NCBI RefSeq assembly: GCF_000373105.1
Contig: NZ_KB890421.1
Span: forward strand, 1 to 64,000
Direction of reading: 5' to 3'
DNA from: Neolewinella persica DSM 23188
GTDB taxonomy: Bacteria > Bacteroidota > Bacteroidia > Chitinophagales > Saprospiraceae
Length of the DNA stretch: 64,000 nucleotides
Positions within the stretch are counted from its first letter, which is position 1, and each line of letters opens with the position of its first letter. The notes under the pieces were generated by a model. It saw only the letters and a program-made list of their open reading frames with translations, searched no databases and was not told where the DNA came from. This document shows, piece after piece, positions 7,114 to 61,953 of the stretch. The translations under genes were made by a program, and so were the position numbers.

Positions 7114-7511
7114 GATTGCCTCGAATCCTTCCACTAGTAGGTTGATTAAGAAATTTTGCGATTTATTCCGTACGGACATGGCTTGCCCCCGTCCGCACCG
7201 GCATCCTGAAAACGCTTTATTGGTTCGCTTAGCGAACGAAGAGAATGGCACTTTTCCACAGGGGCGGGGGCAAGCCCCGCCCCGCAGGTTTACCTTTATT
7301 TACGAAACTTTTGAATCAACCCACCAGGCGGAATAGCTAACTTATTCTGCACCTGCGGCCCCGCCACCTCCGAAGGAAGCAGCGAAGCTAAAAAGACTTT
7401 ATGGCACACATTAAAACACTGGTGGTAGAACCAGTTTACCCCTAATTCGAGCTGCAATCCCGGTGGGAACTATCTTGCGCGCCACTTAGCAGACCATTAG
7501 ACCCATATTTC
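7114..7511. other. Intergenic region with GC-rich hairpins and a dispersed-element copy
   Basis: 398 bp without a gene. It holds a perfect mini-palindrome GTTCGCTTAGCGAAC near 7223, a GC-rich hairpin around 7262-7290 (GGGGCGGGGGC folding on GCCCCGCCCC), and one copy of the window-wide GC-rich element at 7348-7365. The hairpins may serve as terminator for the upstream receptor, but no clear T-tract follows. Confidence 0.5.
7348..7365 (-). repeat. Dispersed GC-rich element, copy 1
   Basis: TGCACCTGCGGCCCCGCC, the reverse complement of the consensus GGCGSGGNCGCAGGTGCA. Intergenic. Confidence 0.75.
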
Positions 7512-9200
7512 ATGCATCGCTACCTACCACTCCTACTTCTATTTGTCGCCTGTTCTTCGGACCCGCTTGCCTTGCACGAGGTTACTGTTTCTCAGGCGGT
7601 GGTGTCCGATGGATTATCGGAGGTCATTTTCGAAAATGACGGACCAATTAAGGGCGTCAAAGAGCTTCTCCCCGCTCATGAAGACCTCAATTTGAAGCTT
7701 TCTTTTCGCGCGGACGCAGGTGCAAAAGCAGACCTGATGGTGCAGGGTAAGTACACCATAGAATTACCCTCCCTGGCCGTTGCCGGCGCAGAACCCAGAA
7801 TTGCCCCGGCCACCAGCCCCGGCGTCTGGCAGGATCTGGAGATTGTCTTCATCAGCGCTAAAGACGATAAGCCAGCCATTTTTCCGGCAGTTTACCTCAA
7901 CGGCACCCTCGTCTATTATCAAACGCCGTTGGAGGCCGTAGCAGGAGCTTCCACTGGTCCTCTTACCCTGAACGTCAAAAGTGGTAATGTAGAGTTGACC
8001 GACCTGCGGCAGTCCGATCAGGGCGGAAAAGGGTCAGTAATAAATGCTGATGGAAAGGTCGAACTCAATATGCCACTGATGGAATATGAGTTATACGAAT
8101 TACCCACAGGCACCGTCGAGGTGACCAACTGGGGCCAGCTGACACCCAAGAAAACAGGCTATATTAATCGTTTTGATCTACATGCCATTCGGGAGACCGG
8201 CTCCATGTATGCCATTCGCTTTTTCGGCACATTGGATATTCCTCAAGCCGGAGAATACAGTTTTACTTCTTCCAGCCCGGCTTCTACCCAGGTGTATGTC
8301 GACGGACAAAAGATCATCGATCAATCAGGCAGACATCCATTTATTCATACGGAAGGATTCATCGAATTAAGCAAAGGTCCGCACGAGGTTCGCGTTGATT
8401 ATTTCCAAAACGGTGGCTGGCATAAATTCGATTTGGCCTATAAAACACCTGACGGCAACTCTGGATTTCTGAACACCATGGAAGAGAAAAAAACCATCGC
8501 CACCGCCGGCGCTACTAATCCTCAGGTATTGGAGACCGACGATTATCCCTACCTGCTTCGCAGTTTCCTTTACTTTCCTTCGCCCAAAGTTTACGACATC
8601 GCCACCAAACGTACTCACGTGATCAGCGTTGGAGAAGCAGATGGGCCTCATTATTCACTTGACTTGCAAAACGGTGCCCTGCTCCAGGCCTGGCGCGGTG
8701 GCTTTGCCGATACCTACGAGATGTGGGTTGGCCGCGGGGAGCCGCAGGTGATGCGCCCGCTGGGCCCGATCATCCCATTCGACGGAACGCCGCAATGGGC
8801 AGATATTAAGGGAGACGACGACCCATGGCCAATGGAATTGGCAGCGTCGGATGATTTTAGTCATTCTCAGCATAGCCTGGACGAAGCCGGACGACCGACT
8901 TTCATCTATACGATGGGGCAGCATTCGTTAGGGGATAAACTCACACCTACTGAAACGGGGCTGATTCGTGAATTGACCCATAATGTTGGCGGTAACGGGA
9001 CTATTTTTACTAAGGTCGCCTCAGCGCGCCAGATCGAAGAGACGGCCCCAGGGGAGTATCAACTTCGTGGCCCTGGCCTGAAACTTACCATCCAGAGCTA
9101 CGATGGGAATCGGCTGGTGCTGCAGCACGCTAACGGCAATGACCGCCTTCTGGCCGAGCTGCCGGCCAAAGGGCACCTTACTTATCTGATGGAGTGGTAG
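7512..9200 (+). CDS. Lipoprotein with 3-keto-disaccharide-hydrolase-like and PA14 domains
   Basis: 562 residues. The N-terminus (MHRYLPLLLLFVAC) ends in a lipobox with acceptor Cys14, so it is probably a membrane-anchored lipoprotein. Residues about 45-165 resemble the jelly-roll of DUF1080/3-keto-disaccharide hydrolases (LKLSFRADAG, QGKYTIELP, VWQDLEIVF). Residues about 200-320 are a PA14-type carbohydrate-binding fold (YAIRFFGTLDIPQAGEYSF, VYVDGQKIID, GPHEVRVDYF). The last 240 residues (LLRSFLYFPSPKVY, LDLQNGALLQAWRGGFADT) resemble a region found in planctomycete and Bacteroidota proteins fused to cytochrome c (possibly DUF6797; not certain). The next gene begins 96 bp downstream and encodes a propeller-cupredoxin protein, so the two probably act together on a sugar-derived substrate in the periplasm. 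Substrate unknown. Confidence 0.7.
   Translation: MHRYLPLLLLFVACSSDPLALHEVTVSQAVVSDGLSEVIFENDGPIKGVKELLPAHEDLNLKLSFRADAGAKADLMVQGKYTIELPSLAVAGAEPRIAPATSPGVWQDLEIVFISAKDDKPAIFPAVYLNGTLVYYQTPLEAVAGASTGPLTLNVKSGNVELTDLRQSDQGGKGSVINADGKVELNMPLMEYELYELPTGTVEVTNWGQLTPKKTGYINRFDLHAIRETGSMYAIRFFGTLDIPQAGEYSFTSSSPASTQVYVDGQKIIDQSGRHPFIHTEGFIELSKGPHEVRVDYFQNGGWHKFDLAYKTPDGNSGFLNTMEEKKTIATAGATNPQVLETDDYPYLLRSFLYFPSPKVYDIATKRTHVISVGEADGPHYSLDLQNGALLQAWRGGFADTYEMWVGRGEPQVMRPLGPIIPFDGTPQWADIKGDDDPWPMELAASDDFSHSQHSLDEAGRPTFIYTMGQHSLGDKLTPTETGLIRELTHNVGGNGTIFTKVASARQIEETAPGEYQLRGPGLKLTIQSYDGNRLVLQHANGNDRLLAELPAKGHLTYLMEW
7708..7727 (+). repeat. Possible dispersed-element copy inside coding sequence
   Basis: GCGCGGACGCAGGTGCAAAA, identical over 18 bases to the copy at 26382-26405 (reverse strand). 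It encodes RADAGAK in a region of the lipoprotein that looks family-like in length, so chance plus codon choice cannot be excluded. Confidence 0.45.
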
Positions 9201-9264
9201 TCGAGGTGTCAGGTTATCAAGTTGTCAGGTTGTCGAGTTACCAGGTTATTGAGTTATCAGGTTG
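9201..9264 (+). repeat. Octamer tandem array directly after a stop codon
   Basis: Eight 8-bp units of consensus TCRRGTTR (for example TCAGGTTA, TCAAGTTG, TCGAGTTA) fill exactly the 64 bases after the TAG of the lipoprotein gene. A three-unit copy of the same octamer lies at 14385-14408. Confidence 0.85.
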
Positions 9265-9295
9265 TCTTCATGGCGGCCCACAAAAAAATAGAATC

Positions 9296-11209
9296 ATGAG
9301 ATTTTTGCCCTTATTCGTCTTCTTTTGTGTCTGTTGCAGCCTCTTTGCTCAGCAGGAATCCGATTACTATGTCCTTACGAAAGTCAACATCCCCGAGGCG
9401 ATAAAGCTAGAAGTTGGCGGGATGGACTTTATGCCCGACGGTCGACTGGCCGTTTGTACCCGCCGGGGGGAAGTCTGGCTGATCGGTGATATGGCGGAGA
9501 ATGAGCCAACCTACCAACTCTTTGCCCGGGGACTTCATGAGCCGCTTGGCTTAGCGGTAAAGGACGGTGCGATCTACGTTTCCCAGCGTGGAGAGGTTAC
9601 CAAACTTGAAGACACGAATAATGATGACCGGGCAGATGTCTTCGTAACCGTGTATGAGCTTCCCCTTACCGGCAATTACCACGAATACCACTACGGTCCA
9701 CTTTTTCGCCCCGATGGTTCCATGCTTTCTACCCTTAACGTAGGTTGGGAAGGTGGTGGCGTCAGCCGGGTGCCCTGGCGCGGTTGGATGATGCGGTACG
9801 ATAATGAAGAAAATAAGTTGGTGCCTTATGCCGCTGGCCTTCGTTCCCCGGCAGGTTTCGGTACGAACATCGAAGGAGACGTTTTCGTCGCCGAAAACCA
9901 GGGGGACTGGATCGGTTCGGGGCGAATCACTCACCTGGAGGAAGGAGACTTCGCCGGGCACAAAGCCAGCCTGAACTGGGCCGATCAACCGGGCTCCAAA
10001 GTGACGGTACGGCCTGATGACATCAACGATGATTACAAAACCATGTACGCTGCCAGGGCCAAAGTACCTGGAGTTAAATTACCGGCCGTTTGGTTCCCGC
10101 ACGGTATTCTGGGGATCTCTACGGCGGCGATTATCGCTGATCGTACAGAGGGAGGTTTCGGTCCGTTTGCCGGACAGTTGTTCGTCTCCGATCAGGGGCA
10201 AAGCAAGATTATGCGCGTAGCGATGGAGAAGGTAGATGGCGAGTACCAGGGCGCGGTCTTTCCTTTTCGCGAAGGTTTCTCCTCTGGACTTCTGCGGCTG
10301 AATTTCGACAAGAACAACGTAATGTATGCCGGGCAAACTGCCCGGGGCTGGTCTGCAACCGGTGGTGAACAGTTTGCGCTGGAAGGGTTGGAATGGACGG
10401 GTGACGTACCGTTTGAGATGAACCGGATTAAAGCAACTGAGGAAGGGTTCGACGTGGAATTCACCCTGCCGGTCAATCCGGTGTCGGTAAAGGCTTCTGC
10501 TTTTACGATTCAAAACTTCACTTATATCTATCACCACAACTACGGGAGTCCGGTGGTGGACATCGAAGACAATAAGATCACCTCCGCCACGGTATTGCCC
10601 GACGGTAAGACGGTACGGTTGGTACTGGATAAGTTGCGTCCGGGATACATCTATGAGGTGAAGTTGAAGGGACCCCGTGCAGCTGATGGAACGAACTTAC
10701 TGCACGATTTTGGCTACTACACCCTGAATGCGATTCCGGGGGGCGCGGCCGCAGGTGCAGTGGAAGCCGGAGGTGCAGTCGCCGCCGAAAAAACGGCCGC
10801 AAAGCGGCCAACGACCATGCCTCCTTCCTGGAACGGAAAGGTCGACGAGGAGCTCCTGCTGGAGACCGAACACGGGATGAAGTTTAAGCAAACCTTTATT
10901 ACAGTAAAGGCCGGGCAGAACGTCCGGCTTACCTTCCGTAATCCGGATGATATGCAGCACAATTTCGTTTTGACTTCCGGCAAAAAAGGCGACGTCGTCG
11001 GAAAAGCTGCCGATGGGCTCGGCCTGAAGGGGCTGGCATCGGGATATATTCCGGAGATCGACGAAGTTTTGGTTCACACCGGCCTCATTGAACCGGAGGA
11101 ATCTGATGTGATCTATTTTACGACGCCGTCTAAGCCTGGATTGTACGAGTTCGTATGTACGGTGCCGGGGCATTATATGTCTATGCGGGGGGTGTTGCAG
11201 GTGGAGTAG
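9296..11209 (+). CDS. Secreted beta-propeller dehydrogenase-like protein fused to a type 1 copper (azurin/auracyanin-like) domain
   Basis: I chose the ATG at 9296 (637 residues) because it gives a clean signal peptide (MRFLPLFVFFCVCCSLFAQ); the longer frame from 9194 translates the octamer repeat. Residues about 30-400 form an NHL/soluble-glucose-dehydrogenase-like propeller (GGMDFMPDGRLAVCTRRG, GLHEPLGLAVKDGAIYV, HYGPLFRPDGSML). An Ig-like segment follows (about 400-480), then an Ala/Gly/Lys linker, then a cupredoxin at about 518-637. The four copper ligands are visible: His555 (MQHNFVL), Cys621, His626 (CTVPGH) and Met630, in azurin spacing. Known cupredoxins shuttle single electrons, so the fused domain probably accepts electrons from the propeller's oxidation reaction or passes them on. 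Partner is the upstream lipoprotein. Substrate and any propeller cofactor are not evident. Confidence 0.8.
   Translation: MRFLPLFVFFCVCCSLFAQQESDYYVLTKVNIPEAIKLEVGGMDFMPDGRLAVCTRRGEVWLIGDMAENEPTYQLFARGLHEPLGLAVKDGAIYVSQRGEVTKLEDTNNDDRADVFVTVYELPLTGNYHEYHYGPLFRPDGSMLSTLNVGWEGGGVSRVPWRGWMMRYDNEENKLVPYAAGLRSPAGFGTNIEGDVFVAENQGDWIGSGRITHLEEGDFAGHKASLNWADQPGSKVTVRPDDINDDYKTMYAARAKVPGVKLPAVWFPHGILGISTAAIIADRTEGGFGPFAGQLFVSDQGQSKIMRVAMEKVDGEYQGAVFPFREGFSSGLLRLNFDKNNVMYAGQTARGWSATGGEQFALEGLEWTGDVPFEMNRIKATEEGFDVEFTLPVNPVSVKASAFTIQNFTYIYHHNYGSPVVDIEDNKITSATVLPDGKTVRLVLDKLRPGYIYEVKLKGPRAADGTNLLHDFGYYTLNAIPGGAAAGAVEAGGAVAAEKTAAKRPTTMPPSWNGKVDEELLLETEHGMKFKQTFITVKAGQNVRLTFRNPDDMQHNFVLTSGKKGDVVGKAADGLGLKGLASGYIPEIDEVLVHTGLIEPEESDVIYFTTPSKPGLYEFVCTVPGHYMSMRGVLQVE
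10741..10760 (+). repeat. Dispersed GC-rich element, in-frame in a domain linker
   Basis: GGGCGCGGCCGCAGGTGCAG, a perfect core. It encodes GAAAGA in the low-complexity linker joining the Ig-like segment to the cupredoxin domain. Confidence 0.8.
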
Positions 11210-11300
11210 GGGAGGTGAAATACTTTGAATTTTATAGCAACCTGTACTTCTACGGAAGCTGAGAGACAGCCGATGATTTGCCACTTGATTACCTGGAATG

Positions 11301-12130: not shown

Positions 12131-12140
12131 ATGCGATCCT

Positions 12141-16092: not shown

Positions 16093-17016
16093 TTACGCTA
16101 CAAAAATATCCTCCATCCCTGCAGGAATCACCCCCCGCTCCCGCCCCTGGGCCAGAAAACCGTTGACCGCCGCGCGGCCCTCCGGGCCGAGGTCCAGTGA
16201 GTAGTCGTTGACGTAAAGGTCGATGTGTTTGCGGCGTACTTCCGGGTCCATCTCCTGGGCGTGCGTGGCCACGTAGTCGGCCGAAGCTTCGGGGTTATCG
16301 AAGGCGTACTGCACTGATCGGGCCAGGACACGGTCAAAGGTTCGTTGCACCTCCGGCGGAAGTGATCGTTTGATGACGATGCCACCAAGGGGGATGGCGA
16401 ATCCGGTGTTGCCCTCCCAGAATTCTCCGAGATCCATGAGCTTATGCAGCCCGCGCTCGTGGTAGGTGAACCGATTTTCATGAATCAGCAGCCCGGCCGT
16501 GAACTCGCCAGAAAGCACCCGGGCTTCGATGTCGGAGAAAAGTACTTCCTGCTTATTAGCCAGTTCCGGAAAGGCAAGCCCCAGCAGGTAATTGGCCGTG
16601 GTGAACTTTCCTGGAATGGCAACTGAATTAATCCCCGACCCGGACCTCGAAGCGTCCCGCAGGGACCTTTGAGCGTCCACCGCCCCTTGCTCCTTCACCG
16701 CCTCCCCTTGCACCTGCGTCCCCGCCAGATAACCTTCCGCCAACGCCCGGTCAGCCGTCACCAGCAAAGGCCCCACACCGCGCCCCAGCGCGCTGCCGGC
16801 ATTCAGCAAGGCGTAGGTCCCGGTCAGATGACCGAAAGCATGGTAGCTCAGCTTAGTCGCATCCAATTCGCCGGCAAAGGCCAGTCGGTTGAGTTCCTCC
16901 ACGTCCCCTAAGCGGACGTTAAATTCAAGTCCTTCCGTATCGATCCGGCCATGGACCATGGCGTCGAAAATAAAGGTGTCGTTGGGGCAGGGGGAGTAAC
17001 CAAGGGTAAGACGCAT
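16093..17016 (-). CDS. mqnD: 1,4-dihydroxy-6-naphthoate synthase (menaquinone, futalosine pathway)
   Basis: 307 residues. MqnD converts cyclic dehypoxanthinyl futalosine to 1,4-dihydroxy-6-naphthoate in the cytoplasm. The hallmark start LGYSPCPNDTFIFDAM and the motifs LSYHAFGHL, VAIPGKFTTANYLL and GLLIHENRFTYHERGL are all present. Family members are usually about 270-285 residues. The excess is explained by a segment at residues about 96-128 (between GPLLVTADR and the VAIPGK strand) that does not look like MqnD and whose DNA contains a copy of the dispersed GC-rich element. It lies in a substrate-lobe loop, so the enzyme may still work. Other mqn genes are not in this window, which is common in Bacteroidota. 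The frame is intact throughout. Confidence 0.92.
   Translation of the reverse strand: MRLTLGYSPCPNDTFIFDAMVHGRIDTEGLEFNVRLGDVEELNRLAFAGELDATKLSYHAFGHLTGTYALLNAGSALGRGVGPLLVTADRALAEGYLAGTQVQGEAVKEQGAVDAQRSLRDASRSGSGINSVAIPGKFTTANYLLGLAFPELANKQEVLFSDIEARVLSGEFTAGLLIHENRFTYHERGLHKLMDLGEFWEGNTGFAIPLGGIVIKRSLPPEVQRTFDRVLARSVQYAFDNPEASADYVATHAQEMDPEVRRKHIDLYVNDYSLDLGPEGRAAVNGFLAQGRERGVIPAGMEDIFVA
16680..16726 (-). repeat. Extended dispersed element inserted in mqnD
   Basis: The core TTGCACCTGCGTCCCCGCC is at 16708-16726; similarity to the copy at 41577-41618 continues through a second purine-rich block (read on the minus strand: core, then GTGAAGGAGCAAGG). It is translated in frame. Confidence 0.8.
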
Positions 17017-17165: not shown

Positions 17166-17870
17166 ATGCACCTACAGGTCCTTTTCGAAGACAACCACCT
17201 CATCGCCGTCAACAAGCCAGCTGGCCTCCTTAGTCAGGGAGACAGCACCGGTGATACTACGGTGATGGATTGGACGAAAAACTACATCAAACTACGTTAT
17301 AATAAACCCGGTGATGTGTATCTCGGTGCCATCCATCGCCTCGATCGTCCGGTGTCTGGTGTCATCCTTTTTGCCCGGACCAGTAAGGCACTCACTAGGA
17401 TGAATGACCTTTTTCGGGACCGAAAAGTTAGCAAGACTTATTGGGCCATCGTTACGGATCAGCCCGACCCGATTGAAGGATCCTTGAAAGGTTTCATCTA
17501 TAAGGATAAGGACAAAAACCGTAGTAAAGTCTTACCTAAGGCTGACTCAAACCGATACCAGGGCGCTAAGTTGGCAAAGCTCGATTACCGCCTGTTGGGT
17601 AGGGTAGGGACCAACGTTTTGCTCGAGGTGAAACCGGAAACTGGCCGTCCGCACCAAATTCGGGTCCAACTGGCAGACCAGCTGAAAACGCCAATTCGAG
17701 GCGATCTCAAATACGGCTCCCGCCTGCGTAACGAGGACGGAAACATCAATTTGCACAGCCGGACCCTTGAGTTCCTGCACCCCGTAAAAAAGGAACCCGT
17801 AAAGATCGAAGCACCAATTCCCGAAATCGACCAGCTCTGGCAACTGTTTGCTGAGATGACGGATTGGTAG
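17166..17870 (+). CDS. RluA-family RNA pseudouridine synthase
   Basis: 234 residues. The catalytic motif HRLDRPVSGV is complete, with the nucleophile Asp60. FEDNHLIAVNKPAG and the C-terminal GRPHQIRVQLA are the other family signatures. There is no N-terminal S4 domain, as in the short RluA/RluC-like or TruC proteins; it isomerises uridine in rRNA or tRNA, target not predictable. The start ATG at 17166 is the first in frame and follows a spacer shared with the divergent mqnD. The stop codon is directly followed by a GTTGCAG heptad array. Confidence 0.9.
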   Translation: MHLQVLFEDNHLIAVNKPAGLLSQGDSTGDTTVMDWTKNYIKLRYNKPGDVYLGAIHRLDRPVSGVILFARTSKALTRMNDLFRDRKVSKTYWAIVTDQPDPIEGSLKGFIYKDKDKNRSKVLPKADSNRYQGAKLAKLDYRLLGRVGTNVLLEVKPETGRPHQIRVQLADQLKTPIRGDLKYGSRLRNEDGNINLHSRTLEFLHPVKKEPVKIEAPIPEIDQLWQLFAEMTDW

Positions 17871-17924
17871 ACAGGTTGCAGGTAGACAGGTTGCAGGTTG
17901 CAGGTTGCAAGTTGCAAGTTGCAA
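17871..17924 (+). repeat. GTTGCAG heptad array directly after a stop codon
   Basis: Units GTTGCAG and GTTGCAA repeat at 17875 and from 17890 to 17924 (three perfect or near-perfect in a row before drifting to GTTGCAA). Begins right after the TAG at 17868-17870. Confidence 0.85.
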
Positions 17925-17954
17925 CCACCAGCAATAGGAACGAAGTGATCCAAA

Positions 17955-19097
17955 ATGGCTGATTTTATAAATAATCGACTAGACAAAATCCGGGAAACCG
18001 GGAACTACCGTAAACTTGCTGGCACGGTGGAAGGGATAGATTTTTGGTCAAATGATTATTTAGGCTTGGCGCGGCCGCAGGTACAAAGTAAGGTGGTCAA
18101 GGGGCAAGGAGAAATGGCCAGCCCGGGACCCACCGGTTCGCGGTCTATTTCTGGTGATGCGGATGACTACCATGCGATTGAGCAGAAGATCGCCGATTAC
18201 CACGGTTTTAGTTCAGCCCTGGTCTTCAACTCCGGCTACACCGCCAACCTCGGCCTGCTTTCTTCCTTGTTGAAGCGCAACGACGTCATATTGTATGACG
18301 AATTGATTCACGCCAGCTGTCGGGATGGTATTCGCTTAGGTTTAGCTAAAGCTTTTCGTTTTTCGCATAACAATCTGGAAAATAGTTTATTAAGTAATCT
18401 GGGCAAAGTTTCGGGTGAAGGCCAACTATTTGTGCTTACCGAAGGCAGGTTCAGCATGGACGGTGACCTGGCGCCATTAATTGAGATAGCGGGCCTTTGC
18501 GAAATACATGGTGCTCACCTGATCGTCGACGAAGCTCACTCCGGAGGAGTTGATGGTCCGTATGGTGCAGGATTGGTCGCTCGATTTGGTTTGCAGGATC
18601 GTGTATTTGCCTCAATAATCACCTACGGCAAAGCTTTTGGCGCACATGGCGCTGCGGTGTTGGGTGATAAAGCTCTGAAGGAATACCTGGCCAATACCTG
18701 TCGTCCTTTCATTTATACGACTGGCCCGGCCCCGGCGCAATGGCTGGCGATTTCAGGGGCTTACGCCAGGCTACAGGCAGACCATGAAGCCCTGTCAGCC
18801 TTGCTTGGTAAGCGTATCCAACAATTCAATTCTGAAATGGAGGCCGCCGGATTAAGCGGCCTGCTCACCGGCGTTGAAGGACCGATTCAGGTCATCAGCG
18901 TCCCCGGAAACCAGGCCGTTATGGCTGCGGAGACGGCCTGCCGGGAGGCAGGCTTACTGGTAAAGGGCATTCGTTCCCCTACCGTTGCTGCTGGCAGCGA
19001 GCGGTTACGGATTTGCTTGCATGCGTTTAATACGGAGGTGGAGGTAGAGCGGTTGGTGACAACGTTGAAACAAGTGCTGCTGCAAAGACAGGATTAG
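17955..19097 (+). CDS. bioF: 8-amino-7-oxononanoate synthase-like PLP enzyme
   Basis: 380 residues, the normal length of the alpha-oxoamine synthase family. The PLP lysine is Lys226 in ITYGKAFGAHGAAV, the pyridine-binding aspartate is in LIVDEAHSGG, and FNSGYTANLGLLSSL and TGSRSISG are family motifs. BioF condenses pimeloyl-ACP with L-alanine in biotin synthesis; a KBL- or Spt-like amino acid/acyl partner is possible. The next gene is a ketoacyl synthase on the same strand, which fits acyl-chain supply. At residues 38-46 the DNA matches the dispersed element with one mismatch; the family motif after NDYLGLA is altered there but the length is unchanged. Confidence 0.8.
   Translation: MADFINNRLDKIRETGNYRKLAGTVEGIDFWSNDYLGLARPQVQSKVVKGQGEMASPGPTGSRSISGDADDYHAIEQKIADYHGFSSALVFNSGYTANLGLLSSLLKRNDVILYDELIHASCRDGIRLGLAKAFRFSHNNLENSLLSNLGKVSGEGQLFVLTEGRFSMDGDLAPLIEIAGLCEIHGAHLIVDEAHSGGVDGPYGAGLVARFGLQDRVFASIITYGKAFGAHGAAVLGDKALKEYLANTCRPFIYTTGPAPAQWLAISGAYARLQADHEALSALLGKRIQQFNSEMEAAGLSGLLTGVEGPIQVISVPGNQAVMAAETACREAGLLVKGIRSPTVAAGSERLRICLHAFNTEVEVERLVTTLKQVLLQRQD
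18068..18093 (+). repeat. Dispersed GC-rich element inside bioF
   Basis: GGCGCGGCCGCAGGTACAAA and then GTAAGG: one mismatch (A for G) to the consensus core, plus the extension AAAGTAAGG also seen at 35501-35525. Encodes ARPQVQSK. Confidence 0.7.
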
Positions 19098-20421: not shown

Positions 20422-21183
20422 ATGTCGATAATACGCATTAAGAACCTGAGAAAATCCTACGGAAATAACGCCGTATTGAAGGGAATCGATTTGGAAGTTG
20501 CCGCCGGCCAGATCATCGGATACATCGGTCCTAATGGAGCGGGGAAATCCACCACCATAAGAATTTTGGCGGGGCTGGACAGCCAATTTGAAGGAGACGT
20601 AGAAGTTTTGGGCTACAACGTAAAAGACAATCCGCTGGAGGTGAAACGCCGTATTGGCTACATACCGGAGGCGGCTGAAATCTATGAGGTCCTTACCCCT
20701 ACGGAGTTTTACGAGTTGGTCGGTGGCTTGCAGGATTTGCCGTGGGAAATAACCTTAAAGCGGGCCCGCCGCCTGGAAGATTACCTCCAACTCAAATATA
20801 CCGATGATCAGCGCATCGATACTTTTAGTAAAGGTATGAAGCAAAAGGTTTTACTGATCTCCGGCTTGTTGCATGACCCGGAGTTGATCTTTTTGGACGA
20901 ACCACTGGCCGGCCTGGACGCCAACTCCGTTATCCGGGTGAAGGAATTACTTCAACAGCTGACCGAACGCGGGAAGACCATTTTCTACAGCTCCCACATC
21001 ATGGAAGTTGTGGAGAAAATCAGCGATCGGATCATTTTGCTAAACAACGGCACTATTGCCGCAAACGGTACTTTTGCGGAGATCAACGCCCAGGCCCACA
21101 GCGGTAGCCTCGAAAACTTATTCTCTGAACTGACCGGTGGTGGTACTGCTGCCTTGGACTTTGACTTCACCGCCGATGAATAA
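20422..21183 (+). CDS. ABC transporter ATP-binding protein
   Basis: 253 residues. All motifs are intact: Walker A GPNGAGKST, signature FSKGMKQK, Walker B LIFLDEPLAGLD and H-loop SSHIMEVVE. The family is the ABC-2 exporter type (DRA/CcmA-like). The stop overlaps the start of the next gene, an integral membrane protein, by 8 bp, so the two form a translationally coupled exporter pair in the inner membrane. Cargo unknown. A useful contrast to the degenerate ABC protein at 54502. Confidence 0.92.
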   Translation: MSIIRIKNLRKSYGNNAVLKGIDLEVAAGQIIGYIGPNGAGKSTTIRILAGLDSQFEGDVEVLGYNVKDNPLEVKRRIGYIPEAAEIYEVLTPTEFYELVGGLQDLPWEITLKRARRLEDYLQLKYTDDQRIDTFSKGMKQKVLLISGLLHDPELIFLDEPLAGLDANSVIRVKELLQQLTERGKTIFYSSHIMEVVEKISDRIILLNNGTIAANGTFAEINAQAHSGSLENLFSELTGGGTAALDFDFTADE

Positions 21184-22827: not shown

Positions 22828-22845
22828 GGCGGGGCCGCAGGTGCA
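22828..22845 (+). repeat. Dispersed GC-rich element, 9 bp after a stop codon
   Basis: GGCGGGGCCGCAGGTGCA, exact core, between the permease and the next lipoprotein gene. Confidence 0.75.
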
Positions 22846-25889: not shown

Positions 25890-26404
25890 GGAGTTGTAAT
25901 GTTTTGTGTTGCCAATATAATGGTTAATCAAGCAACTTGTTTCTTTTCTTCGATTAGTGTTTGCATTTACGCGATGATTGACTGGAATTCCAGTAGCCAT
26001 TAAGGTTATTCAGGCATTAAGTTTTTGGGGGCGGGGGCGCAGGTGCAGGGGATGGTTGAGGGCTTGCACCCCAGGGTGTCCAGTCTGATAGCAATCCTCC
26101 CCTACGTTTTTTAGTCTCGCAATGCTTCTAAACGATGAGAATACTCCGTCTACGTGGCATCCCGTCATACCTGCCTGCCGGCGGCCTACTTTTCATGGGA
26201 AAAGTAGCAAAACCCTTAGGCTGTGTCCCCGGCTGATCACAAATGCCGCCCCTACCTTGCACCCCGAACGCGAACTGGGCCGCAGGCTCTTGGAGCAGGT
26301 AACTCCGTAGGGTTGGCACCGTGGTACCATCCAAAATCGCTGCGCTCCCTTGAATGGATCGGGCTACAAGCCCTCAACCCGTTTTGCACCTGCGTCCGCG
26401 CCCC
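25890..26404. other. Gene-free stretch holding an inverted pair of dispersed elements
   Basis: 515 bp. Two extended element copies face each other at 26026-26068 and 26367-26405, both sharing the block GGTTGAGGGCTTG after the core. Between them are a palindrome CTACTTTTC-N4-GAAAAGTAG (26186-26207) and no convincing gene. The whole may be one mobile or hairpin-forming unit of about 380 bp. Confidence 0.6.
26026..26068 (+). repeat. Dispersed GC-rich element, left member of inverted pair
   Basis: Core GGGGGCGCAGGTGCA near 26032-26046, followed by GGTTGAGGGCTTGCA, the same extension as the copy at 26367-26405. Confidence 0.8.
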
Positions 26405-26405
26405 C
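26367..26405 (-). repeat. Dispersed GC-rich element, right member, touching a stop codon
   Basis: Read on the minus strand it begins immediately at the TAG of the strictosidine-synthase-like gene and runs GGGGCGCGGACGCAGGTGCA, then GGGTTGAGGGCTTG. Confidence 0.8.
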
Positions 26406-27457
26406 TATTCCGGTACTTGAATACGACCAATACCCGCCTCGTCCAAAGTGCCAAAATAGAGGTAATCTCCAACCCGTTCAATCGAACTGATGCTAGAGAA
26501 ATCCGGCGTTTTATTCATCCAGTCATGGACAATTGTGCCGGTTTCGTCCAGCGCCAAAATTCGATTCTCCTTTACCGGTTTCGGCAGGAAAGACTTGGGT
26601 AGTTTAGTGACCAGTCTTCGGGTCCAGGGCCGGGGCAGGATGAAGTCGTGCATGGAAGTCCGTGGGCTGATGAGCGTGACGTAAACCAGCCCGTCACTTC
26701 CCCGGCTGATGCCGTCGGGCCAGCCGGGAAGACCTTCAATGAATATTTCCGTACTTCCGGCCTTCGGCCCGGCCATCCAGTGTTTCTTAATACGAAAAGC
26801 ACCAGTTTCAGCTACAAGTACGTAAGCTTCGTTGGCATCGACGACGACACCGTTGGCGAAGTGTAAATGGTCCACCAGCCGTTCTGTTTCTCCGGTCGCT
26901 GGCAGGTAACGGTACAGTGCGCCATTGGGCCTCCCTTGCAGGATATCGTACTGCAAATCATCATCCCCATAGGCATCAGAAGCATCGGTGAAGTACACAT
27001 TTCCACTACCCGCCACATCGAGATAATCAATCAGCATAAAGGTGGTGTCGTTGAAGGAGTTAACGACTATTTCGTAGGTTCCTTGGCGTAAATCTACTTT
27101 CGCAAGTCCTTCATGCTCTACGGCTACCCAGGCCATACTATCTCCCATGACTTCCAGGCCGAGCGGCCTGCCTTTGAACTTTAGCACTTCCGTCAATCGA
27201 GATCCGCCATTAAGCGGGAATTTCTTCAACGTGCCATCCCGGTGACCGGCATAAAGGTGCCCCAGACCGTCAAAGGAGATGTCTTCGCAACCCTGGCAAA
27301 CCACGGGGAAGAGCACTTCTATTTTTCCCAGTTTTTCATTATCCGCCAGTTCCAGCTTCGGGAAATTTAACGCCACTGGATCAATTGGAGAGGGGGCCAG
27401 AATGAGGTAAAGGGCCAGTAGACCGAAAATCGATGGTGCAGCTTTTTTAATGGACAT
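26405..27457 (-). CDS. SMP-30/strictosidine synthase-like beta-propeller
   Basis: 350 residues. A hydrophobic N-terminal helix (FGLLALYLILAPSP) anchors or exports it. Repeated propeller strands follow: EDISFDGLGHLYAGHRDG, GNVYFTDASDAYG, FANGVVVDANEAYVLVAETG, GWPDGISRGSDGLVYV. The order matches strictosidine-synthase-like and lactonase/arylesterase proteins (APMAP type), which usually hydrolyse lactones or esters with a Ca ion. The substrate is unknown. The minus-strand sequence TACCTTTC lies 4 nt before the start, a near match to a -7 box. Confidence 0.82.
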   Translation of the reverse strand: MSIKKAAPSIFGLLALYLILAPSPIDPVALNFPKLELADNEKLGKIEVLFPVVCQGCEDISFDGLGHLYAGHRDGTLKKFPLNGGSRLTEVLKFKGRPLGLEVMGDSMAWVAVEHEGLAKVDLRQGTYEIVVNSFNDTTFMLIDYLDVAGSGNVYFTDASDAYGDDDLQYDILQGRPNGALYRYLPATGETERLVDHLHFANGVVVDANEAYVLVAETGAFRIKKHWMAGPKAGSTEIFIEGLPGWPDGISRGSDGLVYVTLISPRTSMHDFILPRPWTRRLVTKLPKSFLPKPVKENRILALDETGTIVHDWMNKTPDFSSISSIERVGDYLYFGTLDEAGIGRIQVPE

Positions 27458-35405: not shown

Positions 35406-35424
35406 ATGGGGAATACTTTTTCGT

Positions 35425-35526
35425 GCGGGGTCGCAGGTGCAAAGTGAAAATTGCCAAAAGCAAGCCAATTATTCCGTTCTTTTCCCTTTGTGCTTTAAAC
35501 CTTTACTTTGCATCTGCGACCCCGCC
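35425..35526. repeat. Inverted pair of dispersed elements (MITE-like, about 100 bp)
   Basis: Left arm GCGGGGTCGCAGGTGCAAAG (35425 on) and right arm, read in reverse, GCGGGGTCGCAGATGCAAAG (ending 35526): one mismatch in about 21 bp, with about 58 nt between. The ends resemble terminal inverted repeats of a miniature element. No transposase is near. Confidence 0.85.
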
Positions 35527-35593: not shown

Positions 35594-36604
35594 ATGAAAC
35601 CCAATTATTCCTACGAAGACATTCTTGCACTTGATTTTCCTCCGGTTATCGTCTATGCTGCGCCGTTGTTGATATTTTTTGCCGTACTGGAGTGGTATTT
35701 GCGGCGGAGGGAATACCACCACCATCTGGAAGAGGCTCGGGGCGGTGTGTCTTCAGCGCTGGCCGAAAAGTATAAGTACGACGTGAAAGATGGTCTGGCG
35801 GGGGCCGGTGTTGGCTTAGGGTACCTGATTAGTACGGCCATGGTTAAAGCCCTCACTTTCGGCGTCATCCTGTACTTCTATAACCTGACGCCATTATACG
35901 TCCCGACGGCCTGGTGGAGCTTTATAGCCTGCTATATCGTCGTCGACTTTTGCCGCTATTGGGCCCACCGGATTGCGCATGAGCAGCGTTTTTGGTGGGC
36001 TACCCACGTAACGCATCACAGCTCAGAGCAATACAACCTGACCGTCACTTTTCGCCTCTCGTGGACGCAACACATCAAGGTCATTTTCTTTATTCCTGCA
36101 GCGCTGCTTGGCTTCGATCCCTTCGTGTTTTTTATTTGCATGCAGATTGGTGTTTTGTACCAATACTGGGTACACACTGAGCTGATCGGCAAGTTATGGG
36201 CGCCGATCGAGTACTTCTTTATCACGCCAAGCCACCATCGCGTCCATCACGGTTCTGAAGAGAAGTACCTGGACAAAAACTATGGTTCTTCGCTCGTTAT
36301 CTGGGACCGAATGTTCGGAACCTTTTGCGCCGAGGAGGAACGCCCGCACTACGGTATTCTGAAGCCGGTAAACAGCTATAATCCGGTCTACCTTGTCTTT
36401 CATGAACACATCGACCTGGTGCGGGATATGCTGAAATATCGCCACCCAAAGGCCTGGTGGCGGATTCTGTTTCACGGTCCCGGACTTACGCTCGATAAGG
36501 AGAAATACTACGGGTTTTATAAGCAGCAGGGCGGGACCGCAGGTGCAGGAAATCTGGACCAGGGAGCAGTGAGGGAGGAGACACCTGGAAACGTGGTGGT
36601 GTAG
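35594..36604 (+). CDS. Sterol desaturase/fatty acid hydroxylase family protein
   Basis: 336 residues. Membrane protein with the di-iron histidine boxes of the family: HRIAH, HVTHH and HHRVHH near residues 125, 138 and 213. It hydroxylates or desaturates a lipid substrate in the inner membrane using O2 and two iron ions. The frame ends with a tail after YYGFYKQQ that is encoded by a dispersed-element copy at 36529-36547 and following bases; related proteins would be expected to stop near there, so the last 24 residues look acquired. Convergent to the next gene. Confidence 0.88.
   Translation: MKPNYSYEDILALDFPPVIVYAAPLLIFFAVLEWYLRRREYHHHLEEARGGVSSALAEKYKYDVKDGLAGAGVGLGYLISTAMVKALTFGVILYFYNLTPLYVPTAWWSFIACYIVVDFCRYWAHRIAHEQRFWWATHVTHHSSEQYNLTVTFRLSWTQHIKVIFFIPAALLGFDPFVFFICMQIGVLYQYWVHTELIGKLWAPIEYFFITPSHHRVHHGSEEKYLDKNYGSSLVIWDRMFGTFCAEEERPHYGILKPVNSYNPVYLVFHEHIDLVRDMLKYRHPKAWWRILFHGPGLTLDKEKYYGFYKQQGGTAGAGNLDQGAVREETPGNVVV
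36529..36547 (+). repeat. Dispersed GC-rich element at the 3' end of a coding sequence
   Basis: GGGCGGGACCGCAGGTGCA. It is read in frame and encodes GGTAGA in the extra C-terminal tail of the desaturase. Confidence 0.75.
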
Positions 36605-38576: not shown

Positions 38577-38772
38577 AGGGTAGAGTAGTTCGGTATTGGC
38601 GGCAAGGTAAGTAATGTGGTGAAGTTGGGGGCAGTCTTCGAAATAATGGATGGTATAAGATCCCCAAACCGTGATGTTTTGGGGTACAGTTGACCTGAGT
38701 TCAACAGCGTTTGCCGGCACTTAGCGCCACGTAATTTCCCGAACTACTTCGTGATGGCTATATCTCAAGTAG

Positions 38773-41513: not shown

Positions 41514-41576
41514 GCAGCTAAAATCCAGAAACCAGGGAAGTAGTTACCAGTTCTCTAGCTTCTGGTTACGAAATAA

Positions 41577-41618
41577 GGGCGCGGCCGCAGGTGCAATGAG
41601 AAGGTTTAAGGAGCAAGG
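41577..41618 (+). repeat. Dispersed GC-rich element with second conserved block
   Basis: Core GGGCGCGGCCGCAGGTGCA (41577-41595) followed by AAGGTTTAAGGAGCAAGG (41601-41618). The same second block, with changes, follows the cores at 16680-16726, 18068 and 35501. Intergenic. Confidence 0.85.
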
Positions 41619-41690
41619 TCAGCTAAGGGCTGATTCCCTTCTACTTTATGTATTCCTTCCCTTTAGTGCATCAACCTTCCAAAAGAAGTT

Positions 41691-46135: not shown

Positions 46136-46155
46136 TTGCACCTGCGGCCGCGGCC
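46136..46155 (-). repeat. Dispersed GC-rich element, intergenic
   Basis: TTGCACCTGCGGCCGCGGCC, reverse orientation, in the divergent spacer between the MCE and cytochrome c genes. Confidence 0.8.
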
Positions 46156-57831: not shown

Positions 57832-59178
57832 ATGAAACCAATCTTTTTCCTTGCTTTCTTTGGCCTTCTCCTTGCACCTGCGGCCGCGCAAAATCTACCT
57901 TACGATCAGACGATTGATTGGGTACTGAACAATCACCCGCTTGCTGCTGCTGCTGACGCCGTAGAGCAAAGAGGTGCAGCGGAGCTGATGAAATTCCGTG
58001 GTGCCCTGGACCCTAAACTTAGTGTGAATTACGATCGCAAGGACTTTAAGGGGACAGAGTACTTCGACTACGGCGAAGCAGCCGTGGAGTGGCAAAGCCC
58101 ATTCGCCGTTAAAGTGGCCGGTGGCTACCAGCGTGCAGAAGGAACTTACCTGAATGCTGAGCGAACCATCCCGTCTGCCGGGCAGGGCTATCTTGCCCTG
58201 AAGCTGCCCCTGCTTCGCGGCCTGATGACCGACGCCACCCGCATCGGCCTGAAACGCGGAGAGTTGGCGGTTGACCGGCAAAGAGCGCTGGCAGACGTTA
58301 TACGAAACGAACTACGTTACGACCTGGCAGTTCGATACCTGCAGTGGACTTTCGCCGTCGAGGTGCTTGACCTGAATCGGGAAATGGAAACGACCATCGC
58401 TGAACGCCTGGCTAATTACCGCGTTTTGCTGCAACAGGGAGACAAGGCGGAGGTAGACACCCTCGAAGCTTCAGTTTATCTCGGGACACAACAACAGATG
58501 GTGCGGCAGGCAGAAATCGACCTGGTGTTGGCCCAGCAAGCAGTGGCTGAAATGTATTGGCCGATGACCGAAGGTGAAGTGCCGGTTACTTTACCCGCCG
58601 AATTTCTGGTGAACTTACCCGCGCCAGGCACGGTAGAAAGTCATCCGGAAATCCGGCAATTAGCGCTAAGTCTGGCCGATGCTTCATTGTCCCGTGACCT
58701 GAAGAGAGAACAACTGAAACCGGAGCTGAACCTAAGTTATTACCTGCTCGGCGATGGCTTCGCCCTGCCGGAAATGGATGCTAGTCCCTTCGCCGAAGCC
58801 TATAAGTTCGGCCTGACGGCGAGCTACCCCATACTCAACCGTAAAGCCCGTGCCGGTGCGCAACTCGGAGAATTGAAGGTCCTGGAATCCGAAGCAAAAC
58901 TCGGCGCCAAAACCCAGGCATTATTTACAAAAGCCGGGGCCTATTACGGGGCTTCCCGGCAATACCTGCAGCAACTTAATTCCGGAGAGATTTTGGCAAA
59001 TCAGGCCGCACAACTTTTGGCAGCAGAACGGGAACTGTATGACCTGGGGGAAAGCACCCAATTTGTTCTTAACCAACGGGAACAAGCACTGTTGAAGGCC
59101 CGGATGGACGTGGCTAAGTTACGGCTGTCCCGGGCTAAGGCAGTGGCTACTTATCGGTATTTACGGGCGGTTTGGTAA
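57832..59178 (+). CDS. TolC-family outer membrane efflux protein
   Basis: 448 residues, signal peptide 1-19 (FLAFFGLLLAPAAAQ). The mature part is mostly long heptad helices with two homologous halves, as expected for the periplasmic tunnel (VEQRGAAELMKFRGALDPKLSVNYD, TTIAERLANYRVLLQQGDKAEVDTLEASVYL, LLAAERELYDLGESTQFVLNQREQALLKARMDVAKLRLSRAKAVATYRY: give family-like outer-membrane factor signatures). Third gene of the TetR-controlled operon, providing the outer-membrane exit. The signal peptide is partly encoded by a copy of the dispersed element. Confidence 0.88.
   Translation: MKPIFFLAFFGLLLAPAAAQNLPYDQTIDWVLNNHPLAAAADAVEQRGAAELMKFRGALDPKLSVNYDRKDFKGTEYFDYGEAAVEWQSPFAVKVAGGYQRAEGTYLNAERTIPSAGQGYLALKLPLLRGLMTDATRIGLKRGELAVDRQRALADVIRNELRYDLAVRYLQWTFAVEVLDLNREMETTIAERLANYRVLLQQGDKAEVDTLEASVYLGTQQQMVRQAEIDLVLAQQAVAEMYWPMTEGEVPVTLPAEFLVNLPAPGTVESHPEIRQLALSLADASLSRDLKREQLKPELNLSYYLLGDGFALPEMDASPFAEAYKFGLTASYPILNRKARAGAQLGELKVLESEAKLGAKTQALFTKAGAYYGASRQYLQQLNSGEILANQAAQLLAAERELYDLGESTQFVLNQREQALLKARMDVAKLRLSRAKAVATYRYLRAVW
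57872..57890 (-). repeat. Dispersed GC-rich element in the tolC signal peptide
   Basis: TTGCACCTGCGGCCGCGCA encodes LAPAAA at the signal-peptide cleavage region; reverse orientation. Confidence 0.8.
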
Positions 59179-59224
59179 ACAAGTTGTACGATTGCAGATT
59201 TCAGGAGTTGCAGGGGTAATATCC

Positions 59225-61636
59225 TCAGAATTCAACCTCATTAGACCCCGTAGTAAGGAACACTTCTTGCTTGGACGCTCCCGTGATCAGTTGAATGCTT
59301 CCCGGACCAAAAGCGTGAAGGGTAACAGCCGTTATTTTATTGTCTTTCCAGGAAATATCAACTTCATGCCCCGTGCGCGTCCGTACCCCCCGGAGTGTTC
59401 CTTCCGGCCACGCATCCGGCAGCGCCGGCAGCAGCCGGATCTCGTTGGGGCCAGACTGTACGATCATCTCCAGAATTGCCGCTGCACCGCCAAAATTGCC
59501 ATCGATCTGGAAGGGTGGGTGCGCATCAAAAAGGTTGGGGTAGGTGCCGCCACCTTGTCCGCCGGTTTTGCCGGTAGGTTCCACGTAGCGAAGTAATTCC
59601 CGCAGCATCTTGTAGGCACGGTTGCCGTCCCACAATCTGGCCCACAGGTTGATTCGCCACCCCTTGGACCATCCGGTCGTCTCGTCTCCCTTTATCTCGA
59701 GAGTCTTACGGCTGGCAGCGGCTAGCTCCGGCGTCTTCTCCGGACTTAAATGATGCCCGGGGTGGAGCCCGAAAAGATGCGTTTGGTGGCGATGCCTGGG
59801 ATCCTGGTCCTCCCAGTCGTGGTACCATTCCTGCAGGTGGCCGTTTTTGCTGATTTTGTAGGGCAAGAGGCGTTCCTGCGCGGCTTTGATCTGGCTTTGC
59901 AGCCCCGGATCCATGCCTAGAATTTCACCGGCGGCCAGGGTCTGGGCAAAATTCTCCCTAATGAAAGCCATGTCGGCGGACCCTCCGTACAGCGTTGAAC
60001 CGGCGTAACCGTCGGAAGTGATGAATCTCGCTTCGGGGGAGGTGGATGGAGACGTGAGCAATTCTCCCTGTGGCCCTTCCGTCAGCCAATCCAGGCAAAA
60101 GCGGGTAGCGCCTTTCAGGATAGGGTAGGCCTTGGTTCGCAGGAATGCTTCATCGCGGGTGAAGAGGTAGTGCTCCCAGAGGTGGGTACTGAGCCAAACA
60201 CCTCCCATGTTCCAGTTAGCCCAATTGGGATCTCCCTGGCCGAAATCGCCAACGGGGTTGCTCATTGCCCAGATATCTGAGTTGTGGCAGGCTACCCAGC
60301 CGTCGGTGCCATAAAAAGTACGGGCAGTTATCGCTCCGGTCCTGGCCACGTTTTCGATAAAGCCGAGCATGGGTTGGTGCATTTCTGACAGATTGGCGAC
60401 TTCAGCTGGCCAATAGTTTTCTTCCGCGTTGATGTTGATGGTGTAGTTTGCGCTCCAGGGTGGTCGCAGGTAGGGATTCCAGATGCCTTGCAGGTTGGCG
60501 GGGACTTCGGGAGTACGGGAGCTCGAAATGAGCAGGTAGCGCCCGTATTGCAGATAGAGAATTTCGAGATTCTTGTCCTCCACACCCGTACCGTAGCGTT
60601 TCAGGCGTTCGTCAGTGGGAAGGTCAGGGGCGTTGGTGGGCCCGAGATCTAGCGAAAGGCGGCGAAAGAAGGACTGATGATCACGCAGGTGGTTTGTCCG
60701 TAGTTCGTGTACTGTCTTTTGGGCTGCTTGTTGGAGCTGTGTTTCGGCGATGCGCTTATGGTCCAGACCTTCGCGGGCAGGATCTTTATCAAAACCATTG
60801 AAGCTGGTGCTGATGGACACCAGAATGATGGCTTCGGTACCGCCAATGAACCGCATTTTTTCTTCTTCCACGGAGACGCGGCCATCGAAGCTTTTGATGC
60901 GGAACCGGCTGGTGAAACGGGTGCCGCGAGCGGGATCGAAACGGACGGCGTTTGGAATATCTCCCCGGTAACTTGGCTCGGCGTGGTAGGGGGCGTAGCC
61001 ATTCACGGCCAGGTCGGTACTCAGCGGATCAAATGTATGAGGGAGCTGGCTGGTGAAGCCGAGATCAAAGCTGAGCGCGCCTGTTTGACTGGCTTTCAAG
61101 CGAATGACCATTACTTTGTCGGGATGCGAAACGAAATATTCCCGGCTAAAATCAACACCGGCAAGGGAATAGGTTTGCGTGACGATGGCCCGGTCTATGT
61201 CCAGGGAACGCCGGTAGTTACTGACGGCCTTTTTTTGGCGCGGCCGCGGGTGCAGGGGGTGTTGAAAGGCAAGGTGTAAAGTCCCCAAAGGTGCATAGCT
61301 TTGGGAAAAGCTGCCTTGCAGGCCCCGCTGCAGGGAATCTGCTAAACGATAGTTCTCCGCCTTCAATGCGGCCCTGATGGCGGGGAGGGCAGTGCGCGCG
61401 CCGGGGTTCATGTTGGGGTCAACCGGCTCGCCGGACCATAAGGTGGCGTCGTTGAGGAAAATGCTGTCGTTCTCCATTCCGCCGAAGACGGATGCACCGA
61501 CTCGGCCATTACCCAATACCAGGGTCTCCTCGAAAGCTGTAGCCGGTTCGTCGAACCAAAGTTCGTGGGTTGATTGTGCCTTTAGTGCTGAGCAGATGGT
61601 TGAAATAAGGATTAGTAGGATGAACCTTGTTTGCAT
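59225..61636 (-). CDS. GH95-family alpha-L-fucosidase-like glycoside hydrolase
   Basis: 803 residues from the ATG at 61636, which starts a clean signal peptide (FILLILISTICSALKAQ). Family motifs: LVLGNGRVGASVFGG, FLNDATLWSGEP, SNYRRSLDIDRA, NIHEN-type core INAEENYWPAE, the acid region LLTSPSTSPEA and PPFQIDGNFGGAAAILEMI. GH95 enzymes invert alpha-1,2-linked fucose or galactose with a water activated by an Asp network. A segment before VSNYRR (HPLHPRPRQKKA) has no counterpart I know and is encoded by a dispersed-element copy, in frame. Exported; substrate likely fucosylated glycan. The neighbouring genes are not carbohydrate-linked. Confidence 0.9.
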   Translation of the reverse strand: MQTRFILLILISTICSALKAQSTHELWFDEPATAFEETLVLGNGRVGASVFGGMENDSIFLNDATLWSGEPVDPNMNPGARTALPAIRAALKAENYRLADSLQRGLQGSFSQSYAPLGTLHLAFQHPLHPRPRQKKAVSNYRRSLDIDRAIVTQTYSLAGVDFSREYFVSHPDKVMVIRLKASQTGALSFDLGFTSQLPHTFDPLSTDLAVNGYAPYHAEPSYRGDIPNAVRFDPARGTRFTSRFRIKSFDGRVSVEEEKMRFIGGTEAIILVSISTSFNGFDKDPAREGLDHKRIAETQLQQAAQKTVHELRTNHLRDHQSFFRRLSLDLGPTNAPDLPTDERLKRYGTGVEDKNLEILYLQYGRYLLISSSRTPEVPANLQGIWNPYLRPPWSANYTININAEENYWPAEVANLSEMHQPMLGFIENVARTGAITARTFYGTDGWVACHNSDIWAMSNPVGDFGQGDPNWANWNMGGVWLSTHLWEHYLFTRDEAFLRTKAYPILKGATRFCLDWLTEGPQGELLTSPSTSPEARFITSDGYAGSTLYGGSADMAFIRENFAQTLAAGEILGMDPGLQSQIKAAQERLLPYKISKNGHLQEWYHDWEDQDPRHRHQTHLFGLHPGHHLSPEKTPELAAASRKTLEIKGDETTGWSKGWRINLWARLWDGNRAYKMLRELLRYVEPTGKTGGQGGGTYPNLFDAHPPFQIDGNFGGAAAILEMIVQSGPNEIRLLPALPDAWPEGTLRGVRTRTGHEVDISWKDNKITAVTLHAFGPGSIQLITGASKQEVFLTTGSNEVEF
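61237..61254 (+). repeat. Dispersed GC-rich element inside the GH95 gene
   Basis: GGCGCGGCCGCGGGTGCA (one change, A to G, in the core). In the reverse reading frame it encodes HPRPRQ-type residues in the extra segment; similarity extends to GAAAGGCAAGG. Confidence 0.75.
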
Positions 61637-61842
61637 GGAAGGATAGGTGAGCGTGAGAAGAAAAGCTGAATTCAAGGTAAAAAATTATCGCGGGTAATTC
61701 TTTAGAATTGAATTGACGAAGAAACAGCGCTCCTTAATTTGGAGTATGGCGAACACAGATAGGTTTCCCTTGGCTATTAGACCGAAAGCTTCCACCCAGC
61801 TTCATTTGTCATTAAACGTATTGTTGTCCATATCTTCCCCTG

Positions 61843-61953
61843 ATGAAACCGATCCTACTAACCCTGCTGCTATTTGCCCTCCTTTGCACCTGCGGCCGCG
61901 CCCAGGAAATGCGCTGGGAGATCAAGGAAGCCCAGACGAGTTGCAGAGGGTGA
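61843..61953 (+). pseudogene. Remnant of an exported protein gene (signal peptide only)
   Basis: 36-codon frame: ATG, a complete signal peptide (MKPILLTLLLFALLCTCGRA, then Q) and a few residues before TGA. The similar start of the TolC protein (MKPIFFLAFFGLLL) and the shared element copy in the cleavage region suggest that it was once a secreted protein start, now cut off. A genuine micropeptide is possible but unlikely. Confidence 0.45.
61881..61903 (-). repeat. Dispersed GC-rich element in remnant signal peptide
   Basis: TTTGCACCTGCGGCCGCGCC encodes CTCGRA; the second signal peptide in the window that carries it. Confidence 0.8.

Follow-up and report, generated by a model that had tools for sequence, protein, structure and literature searches.

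Dispersed word with species dialects in Neolewinella genomes resembles the DNA uptake words of Proteobacteria

To our knowledge, two proteobacterial families have DNA uptake words of demonstrated function. These words rely on type IV pili, which serve the uptake of the known DNA uptake sequences (DUS) and uptake signal sequences (USS); a USS combines a core with a weaker flanking tail on one side. Here we describe a word of similar layout, an 18-bp core (GGCGSGGNCGCAGGTGCA) with a one-sided weaker tail, that recurs throughout a 64,000-nt stretch of Neolewinella persica DSM 23188 (contig NZ_KB890421.1, positions 1 to 64,000; hereafter the window) and its genome. At sites where the origin of gene copies was decidable, they are a substitution-borne, dialect-forming word and not an invading element, whatever the function. 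Arguing by analogy, we lean slightly towards a genome-wide self-recognition word that would work like the DUS and USS of Neisseriaceae and Pasteurellaceae.

In published accounts, the DUS dialects of Neisseriaceae track phylogeny and inverted pairs occur (PMC3630211), and DUS are conserved in permissive core regions (PMC2397512). The Neolewinella word is similar to these accounts in having about a thousand or more copies per genome on both strands, copies inside genes, inverted pairs, dialects that follow phylogeny, and conservation above that of the flanks. It differs in that DUS measure 10-12 bp, share a 3-nt core and have a type IV pilin as receptor, whereas the Neolewinella word spans 16-18 bp plus a tail, no PilT-type ATPase was found in the genus genomes searched, and one dialect (CAAAGTAGCA) has almost no shared core. 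With USS, the word has in common a bias to gene ends (PMC2346458) and carriage by phages, the Pasteurellaceae phages being described as accumulating USS (PMC6776037); the same source gives two main USS dialects for the whole family, unlike the several dialects found here within one genus. HIP1 of cyanobacteria is likewise a highly iterated word but an 8-bp palindrome (GCGATCGC), for which methyltransferases are named as a clue to function (PMC4390886), whereas the word described here is long, directional and split into dialects. For Riemerella, an own-DNA preference and k-mer counts have been reported, with their role said in that text to need further study (PMC7965970). Our literature search found no description of the Neolewinella word.

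Scoring the core on both strands, we found 19 matches in the window at three or fewer mismatches, as compared with a mean of 0.34 and a maximum of 3 in 100 dinucleotide shuffles, and 16 of the 19 carried zero or one mismatch. A prediction made earlier from the sequence alone had listed 16 positions, all of which were recovered at one mismatch or fewer with shifts of 0-4 nt, and its statement that the element occurs far above chance was borne out. The genome-wide count at two or fewer mismatches that it had proposed as a check yielded 1,811 copies in 7.08 Mb (84 contigs), 903 forward and 908 reverse, against 6 for a reversed-pattern control (4 forward, 2 reverse), in keeping with its description of a dispersed element that occurs in both orientations within and between genes. 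The three remaining window matches, each with three mismatches, comprise a variant copy at 4874 (minus strand), in which GGCGCCGGAGCGCAGGTGCA is followed by a normal tail, and two plus-strand sites at 4729 and 29747 that look like chance matches. In a 464-kb sample consisting of the window and 20 further stretches of the same genome, sites with 0, 1, 2 and 3 mismatches numbered 77, 45, 12 and 15, which indicates a sharp core and no decaying cloud. A T-rich stretch precedes the core, and a purine-rich tail of ~24 nt follows it at variable spacing, roughly RRG.AAGGTT..AGGAGCARGG. Most of the information (~33 bits for the word, by iterative profile) lies in the core, the tail being degenerate and loosely spaced; the second block that the original prediction placed about 6 nt beyond the core does exist, as a loose tail with variable spacing. 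Copies with a loop two bases longer are also present in the genome, and a dyad or short hairpin may be the recognised feature.

A survey of 398 Saprospiraceae genomes in 112 genera, sampled from a larger group, found the motif abundant in Neolewinella only. Eighteen of the 20 other genus members held 102-1,550 copies, and no genome of the other 111 genera exceeded 25 matches, most lying near the reversed-pattern control. The two copy-poor congeners (22 and 11 copies) carry other words, found by k-mer search: GGCGGCGGAGCGCAGGTAAAATGC in genome G363 and TTTTTTGGCTTCAAAGTAGCAATG in G377. G377 holds 892 copies of the GGCTnnCAAAGTAGCA form, and the counts for the other 20 genomes range from 0 to 7. 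Iterative profiles fitted de novo in 11 genomes including our own, with fitting and counting on the same samples and one column-permuted profile per genome as control, revealed a dialect in each of them, at 243-390 sites per Mb in ten (control, 0-10 matches per sample); the eleventh, G354, was weak, with 620 per Mb and a control of 12. The dialect of G193 is GGCGCTGcCGCAGGTGC, and those of G371 and G363 are two bases longer (GGCGnCGGAGCGCAGG). Among congeners, the words include an almost complete core difference (CGCAGGTGCA versus CAAAGTAGCA) and at least one more difference by two-base extension. In a tree of the single gene MtaB, G363 and G371 were sisters (support 0.98) and G377 grouped with the outgroup (0.99), so that the dialects follow descent as far as one gene tells. 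No comparable dispersed word was found in ten other genera sampled at 40 kb each. By eye, the GC-rich dialects are legible as GCG-(4 to 6 nt)-CGC ahead of AGGT; for the G377 word, the corresponding reading is ACT-(loop)-AGT.

The copies in the window are listed below with core coordinates, strand, mismatches to the core and setting.

4874..4893, minus strand: variant copy two nucleotides longer, with tail; three mismatches; inside TonB-dependent receptor gene 4558-7113; this form is the main dialect of G371
7348..7365, minus strand: core copy, no mismatch; intergenic
7707..7724, plus strand: core copy, one mismatch; inside gene 7512-9200 (PA14 domain)
10742..10759, plus strand: core copy, no mismatch; inside gene 9194-11209, ahead of its cupredoxin domain
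16709..16726, minus strand: core copy, no mismatch; inside menaquinone biosynthesis gene 16093-17016
18068..18085, plus strand: core copy, one mismatch; inside aminotransferase gene 17955-19097
22828..22845, plus strand: core copy, no mismatch; begins 9 nt past the end of open reading frame (ORF) 21137-22819
26030..26047, plus strand: core copy, no mismatch; intergenic; in + - arrangement with 26385
26385..26402, minus strand: core copy, no mismatch; directly past the stop of ORF 26405-27457 (minus strand)
35424..35441, plus strand: core copy, one mismatch; intergenic; forms the left half of an inverted pair whose tails face inward
35509..35526, minus strand: core copy, one mismatch; right half of the inverted pair with 35424
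36530..36547, plus strand: core copy, one mismatch; within the final 75 nt of fatty-acid-hydroxylase gene 35594-36604
41571..41623 (core 41578-41595), plus strand: copy with the clearest tail, AAGGTTTAAGGAGCAAGG; zero or one mismatch in the core
46137..46154, minus strand: core copy, one mismatch; intergenic
57873..57890, minus strand: core copy, one mismatch; antisense to outer-membrane efflux protein gene 57832-59178, within its first 60 nt
61237..61254, plus strand: core copy, one mismatch; antisense to glycosyl hydrolase family 95 gene 59225-61675, in its interior; none of the relatives aligned here
61885..61902, minus strand: core copy, no mismatch; reads by eye as a signal-peptide end after an ATG

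The segment 41571-41623 has DNA matches to other copies in at least six relatives. A partial tandem duplication of the 10742 motif, with a period of 18 bp, spans 10744-10787.

Alignments of gene copies with homologous loci of congeners bear on how the motif arose. Of 20 gene-tagged copies from the window and the loci L032 and L040, 13 could be aligned with one or more relatives, which made 81 pairs of site and relative. Forty-one pairs were gapless around the motif, with 28 relatives keeping it (two or fewer mismatches), 11 lacking it (six or more) and 2 intermediate. At several gene copies, motif-free relatives have a homologous site of unchanged length, so that there the motif came by substitution or replacement and not by insertion. 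In MtaB, the 20 residues around the site were gapless in 80 of 80 sequences (the best 80 of 587 public relatives), of which two, from Neolewinella agarilytica and a Lewinella metagenome-assembled genome (MAG), carry the motif and 78 do not; these two are also the closest, matching our MtaB at 90% and 91%. Opposite the MtaB codons GGC GCG AAC GCA GGT GCA (GANAGA), G354 has the residues K K N P D A; G363, G377 and the outgroup G001 have others at these six positions. For HisRS, 11 of 13 aligned relatives were gapless, with the motif present in some and missing in others, while at 7707 all three aligned relatives (G303, G345 and G335) were gapless without the motif, showing 8-11 mismatches between flanks that are 58-68% identical. 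The original prediction had an element invading genes, a claim that these gapless motif-free relatives contradict for the decidable gene copies. Nor are all copies fixed at conserved sites, sites having been gained and lost between species; and, as had been noted before, we found no fit to a known family of repetitive extragenic palindromes (REP), bacterial interspersed mosaic elements (BIME) or miniature inverted-repeat transposable elements (MITE).

At 10742, the motif occupies the same place (0-1 mismatch) in six of seven aligned relatives, two of them gapless; at 16709, two of four relatives show 0-1 mismatch and the other two 6-8, all four alignments being gapped; at 18068, G345 (0 mismatches) and G335 (2) have the motif and G303 (6) does not; and at 36530 all six aligned relatives lack it, all with gaps. 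At L040:15596, our motif lies ~27 nt from a copy common to several relatives in a gappy alignment, as if it had been shifted by loss and gain. Of eight L199 sites in G377's own dialect, a single one could be aligned to relatives, in a gappy alignment. Between genes, the relatives were too divergent for comparison, the best congener pair being 85% identical in the one region compared.

The word is also conserved at the nucleotide level. We compared codons with the same first two bases, taking third positions in invariant motif columns against flanks of the same genes, with sums that pool all classes and count relatives whether or not they kept the motif. Fourfold third positions were identical in 230 of 275 cases inside the motif and in 2,616 of 5,886 in the flanks; among relatives that had lost the motif, identity was 31 of 58 versus 908 of 2,092 in the flanks, with no clear difference.

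Placement was assessed against predicted ORFs of at least 100 aa, picked by length rather than with a gene caller, which cover ~85% of the 464 kb. Of the 134 sample copies (two or fewer mismatches), 67 lay in ORFs, 66 between them and 1 at an edge. Forty-eight were located within ORFs at a depth of more than 100 nt, 25 of them sense and 23 antisense, and favoured frames that yield Ala/Gly/Pro-rich peptides (GAAAGA, APAAAP, xARPQVQ and similar), one of the six frames never being used. By eye, some copies read as signal-peptide ends (61885 and L040:1605, both minus strand). Because the 20 further stretches were partly picked for close + - pairs, the full-sample pair and spacing figures are biased, and we also give figures for an unselected subset (11 of 21 sources, 81 copies) and for samples of ten relatives. 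Close pairs (250 nt or less) were on opposite strands in six of six cases in the unselected subset (five + -, one - +) and in 15 of 15 in the relatives (nine + -, six - +). Tails pointed inward in 14 of 15 pairs of our genome, including partly picked stretches, and in five of six unselected pairs. Reading 14 close pairs by eye, we found no shared sequence apart from the motif and no common interior. Copies in the full sample were spaced more evenly than random (coefficient of variation 0.69 versus 0.86, P 0.01); even spacing is, overall, weakly shown.

The motif occurs in viral contigs as well. When 2.9 million of them were searched for exact matches to the core followed by AARG, 17 stretches from 16 contigs came up, which hold 36 motif copies at two or fewer mismatches, copies that are not independent because many contigs are near-identical. 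Comparison of these contigs with the bacterial loci of the analysis at E 1e-15 gave no match and so no host link. In one viral stretch, a long ORF read by eye as a tail tape measure has a copy on either side.

Abundance, strand balance, origin by substitution, synonymous conservation, permissive frames, inverted pairs, dialects and viral presence are all traits of DUS and USS, which argues that the word would work like an uptake word. We infer from this analogy that DNA uptake is the driving process. A DNA-binding receptor of a competence apparatus would prefer fragments with the word, word-bearing alleles would be taken up and recombined into relatives more often, and copies made by mutation at permissive sites would spread by molecular drive; a change of receptor would then change the word and produce species dialects. 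It is possible, and we say so with some reserve, that Neolewinella has an uptake-type self-recognition system, of which we found none described in the phylum, without a recognisable type IV pilus and with a long structured word that differs genome-wide among congeners. Since the pilus ATPase is missing and the resemblance to uptake rests on analogy, we do not file the word as a member of the DUS or USS.

Several observations weigh against an uptake word. Our machinery searches covered TIGR01420, PF03772 and Y1_Tnp. The PilT/GspE-type ATPase (TIGR01420) was found in none of the 21 genus genomes at E<=0.001, with a model that matches 13 of 14 controls and exceeds its cut-off in five; ComEC (PF03772) was present in 21 of 21, which says little about uptake because it also occurs in 10 of 14 controls. 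No literature report of competence was found for the group, and the word is, at its ~33 bits, longer than known uptake words. Regarding origin, 40 of the 81 aligned pairs were gapped and decide neither way; by our own reading many of these lie in linker-like stretches or at the C-terminus, and two are MtaB pairs that are gapless at the protein level. The synonymous counts come from few sites in related species and are not independent. The excess of tails-inward pairs is limited to our own genome, as the relatives show only 9 of 15, and the 14 tails-inward pairs lie 59-221 nt apart (start to start) and are not tight stem-loops. The evenness of spacing was weaker outside the full sample, with P 0.053 in the same direction for the unselected subset and P 0.0075, 0.05, 0.16 and 0.19 in G377, G335, G116 and G193.

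The strongest competing reading, which we regard as rather unlikely, is a binding site for a chromosome or repair protein: a chromosome-maintenance word bound by a nucleoid, segregation or recombination protein, comparable to Chi, matS or a bacterial CTCF-like site, and kept by selection on genome architecture while the specificity of the binding protein shifts between species. Such a site would be consistent with opposite-strand pairs, with the tendency to even spacing, with an 18-bp core that has a short dyad (GCG-SGGN-CGC, read from the consensus), with the motif in viral contigs and with the missing pilus ATPase. Chi sites, however, are strand-biased and matS sites are few; the copies counted here are balanced over the genome (903 and 908 per strand), and the exact sites listed, counted by hand, stand at 25:27 on contig C1 but at 12:28 on contig C2. 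Different words at ~900 or more places in congeners fit drive more easily than site-by-site selection.

Spread by transposition, as the talk of invasion had implied, appears improbable. A non-autonomous mobile element of the REP/BIME, MITE or Rickettsia palindromic element (RPE)-like kind could account for a core plus tail of ~45 bp, for the enrichment between genes and at gene ends, and for the inverted pairs, and Y1_Tnp genes, the type of the REP-associated tyrosine transposases (RAYT), were present in 20 of 21 genomes, with 0-7 per genome over all 21. Like REP/BIME with RAYT, the word is short, dispersed and often paired in opposite orientation between genes; unlike them, it has half of its copies inside ORFs, a gapless origin at decidable sites and no link to Y1_Tnp number, which does not track copy number. 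In G379, whose genome is 95% complete, the 1,183 copies occur without any Y1_Tnp match, and the one exact copy near our best Y1_Tnp gene is about what overall density predicts. RAYT mobilisation was rejected by the counts, and a MITE with terminal inverted repeats was rejected because the arms of the 14 pairs enclose no shared interior by eye. Gapless motif-free sites in relatives refute transposition for the decidable gene copies, the intergenic copies falling outside that test, and the sharp core with its degenerate tail, as well as related species with different words at similar density, likewise argue against it. Least probable of all, and very much so, is a regulatory or RNA element, whether promoter, terminator or leader, at gene borders that is tolerated inside genes. 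Among terminal or intergenic copies, the tail faces away from the gene in 55 of 86 from the 464-kb sample (p 0.013) and in 34 of 50 from the subset unselected for pairs (p 0.015), as such an element would suggest, but 48 of the 134 copies lie deep inside ORFs, sense and antisense, an Rfam scan of the window gave no match, and the profile has no T-run after the core. A tRNA scan of the window also gave no match.

If the word does serve self-recognition in DNA uptake, it would be a third, independent case, in Bacteroidota and with several dialects inside one genus; it would show how uptake words start, drift and get replaced, would point to a novel DNA receptor and would provide a tag in the sequence itself by which phages and transferred DNA could be assigned to their hosts. 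Should the word do something else, some other drive would have to explain how congeners come to differ in it at ~900 or more places per genome.

Several other repeats were encountered. The candidate words inspected in the ten other genera were rejected, being either repeats within domain-repeat proteins or short clusters between genes, AATCCTAATTCAAA among them; in G046 (L230, L229), AATCCTAATTCAAA clusters occur in both orientations, 16 in 40 kb at two or fewer mismatches. We also rejected GAATTGGTGAAT as a different word of G371, as it forms a tandem array at one locus and the dispersed word of that genome is the form longer by two bases; at L205:15304-16375, G371 has a tandem array of GAATTGGTGAATTG units with CTCGCTGCGCTCG-like spacers in two opposite blocks. 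In our window, a second dispersed repeat of ~100 bp (38660-38762) lies around the start of ORF 37680-38720 and recurs at 77-87% identity at no fewer than 13 further sites in the genome. Heptamers of the CCTGAAA / CAGGTTG / TGCAACC type form tandem arrays at 31464-31634, 17866-17923 and 62009-62074, and repeats around GAGCGAAGCGACCC and TGCAACCCCTGCAAC at 63542-63737 and 17920-17951. In the 464-kb sample, GTTGCAGGGG, GAGCGAAGCG and ATTCTCGATT were likewise over-represented.

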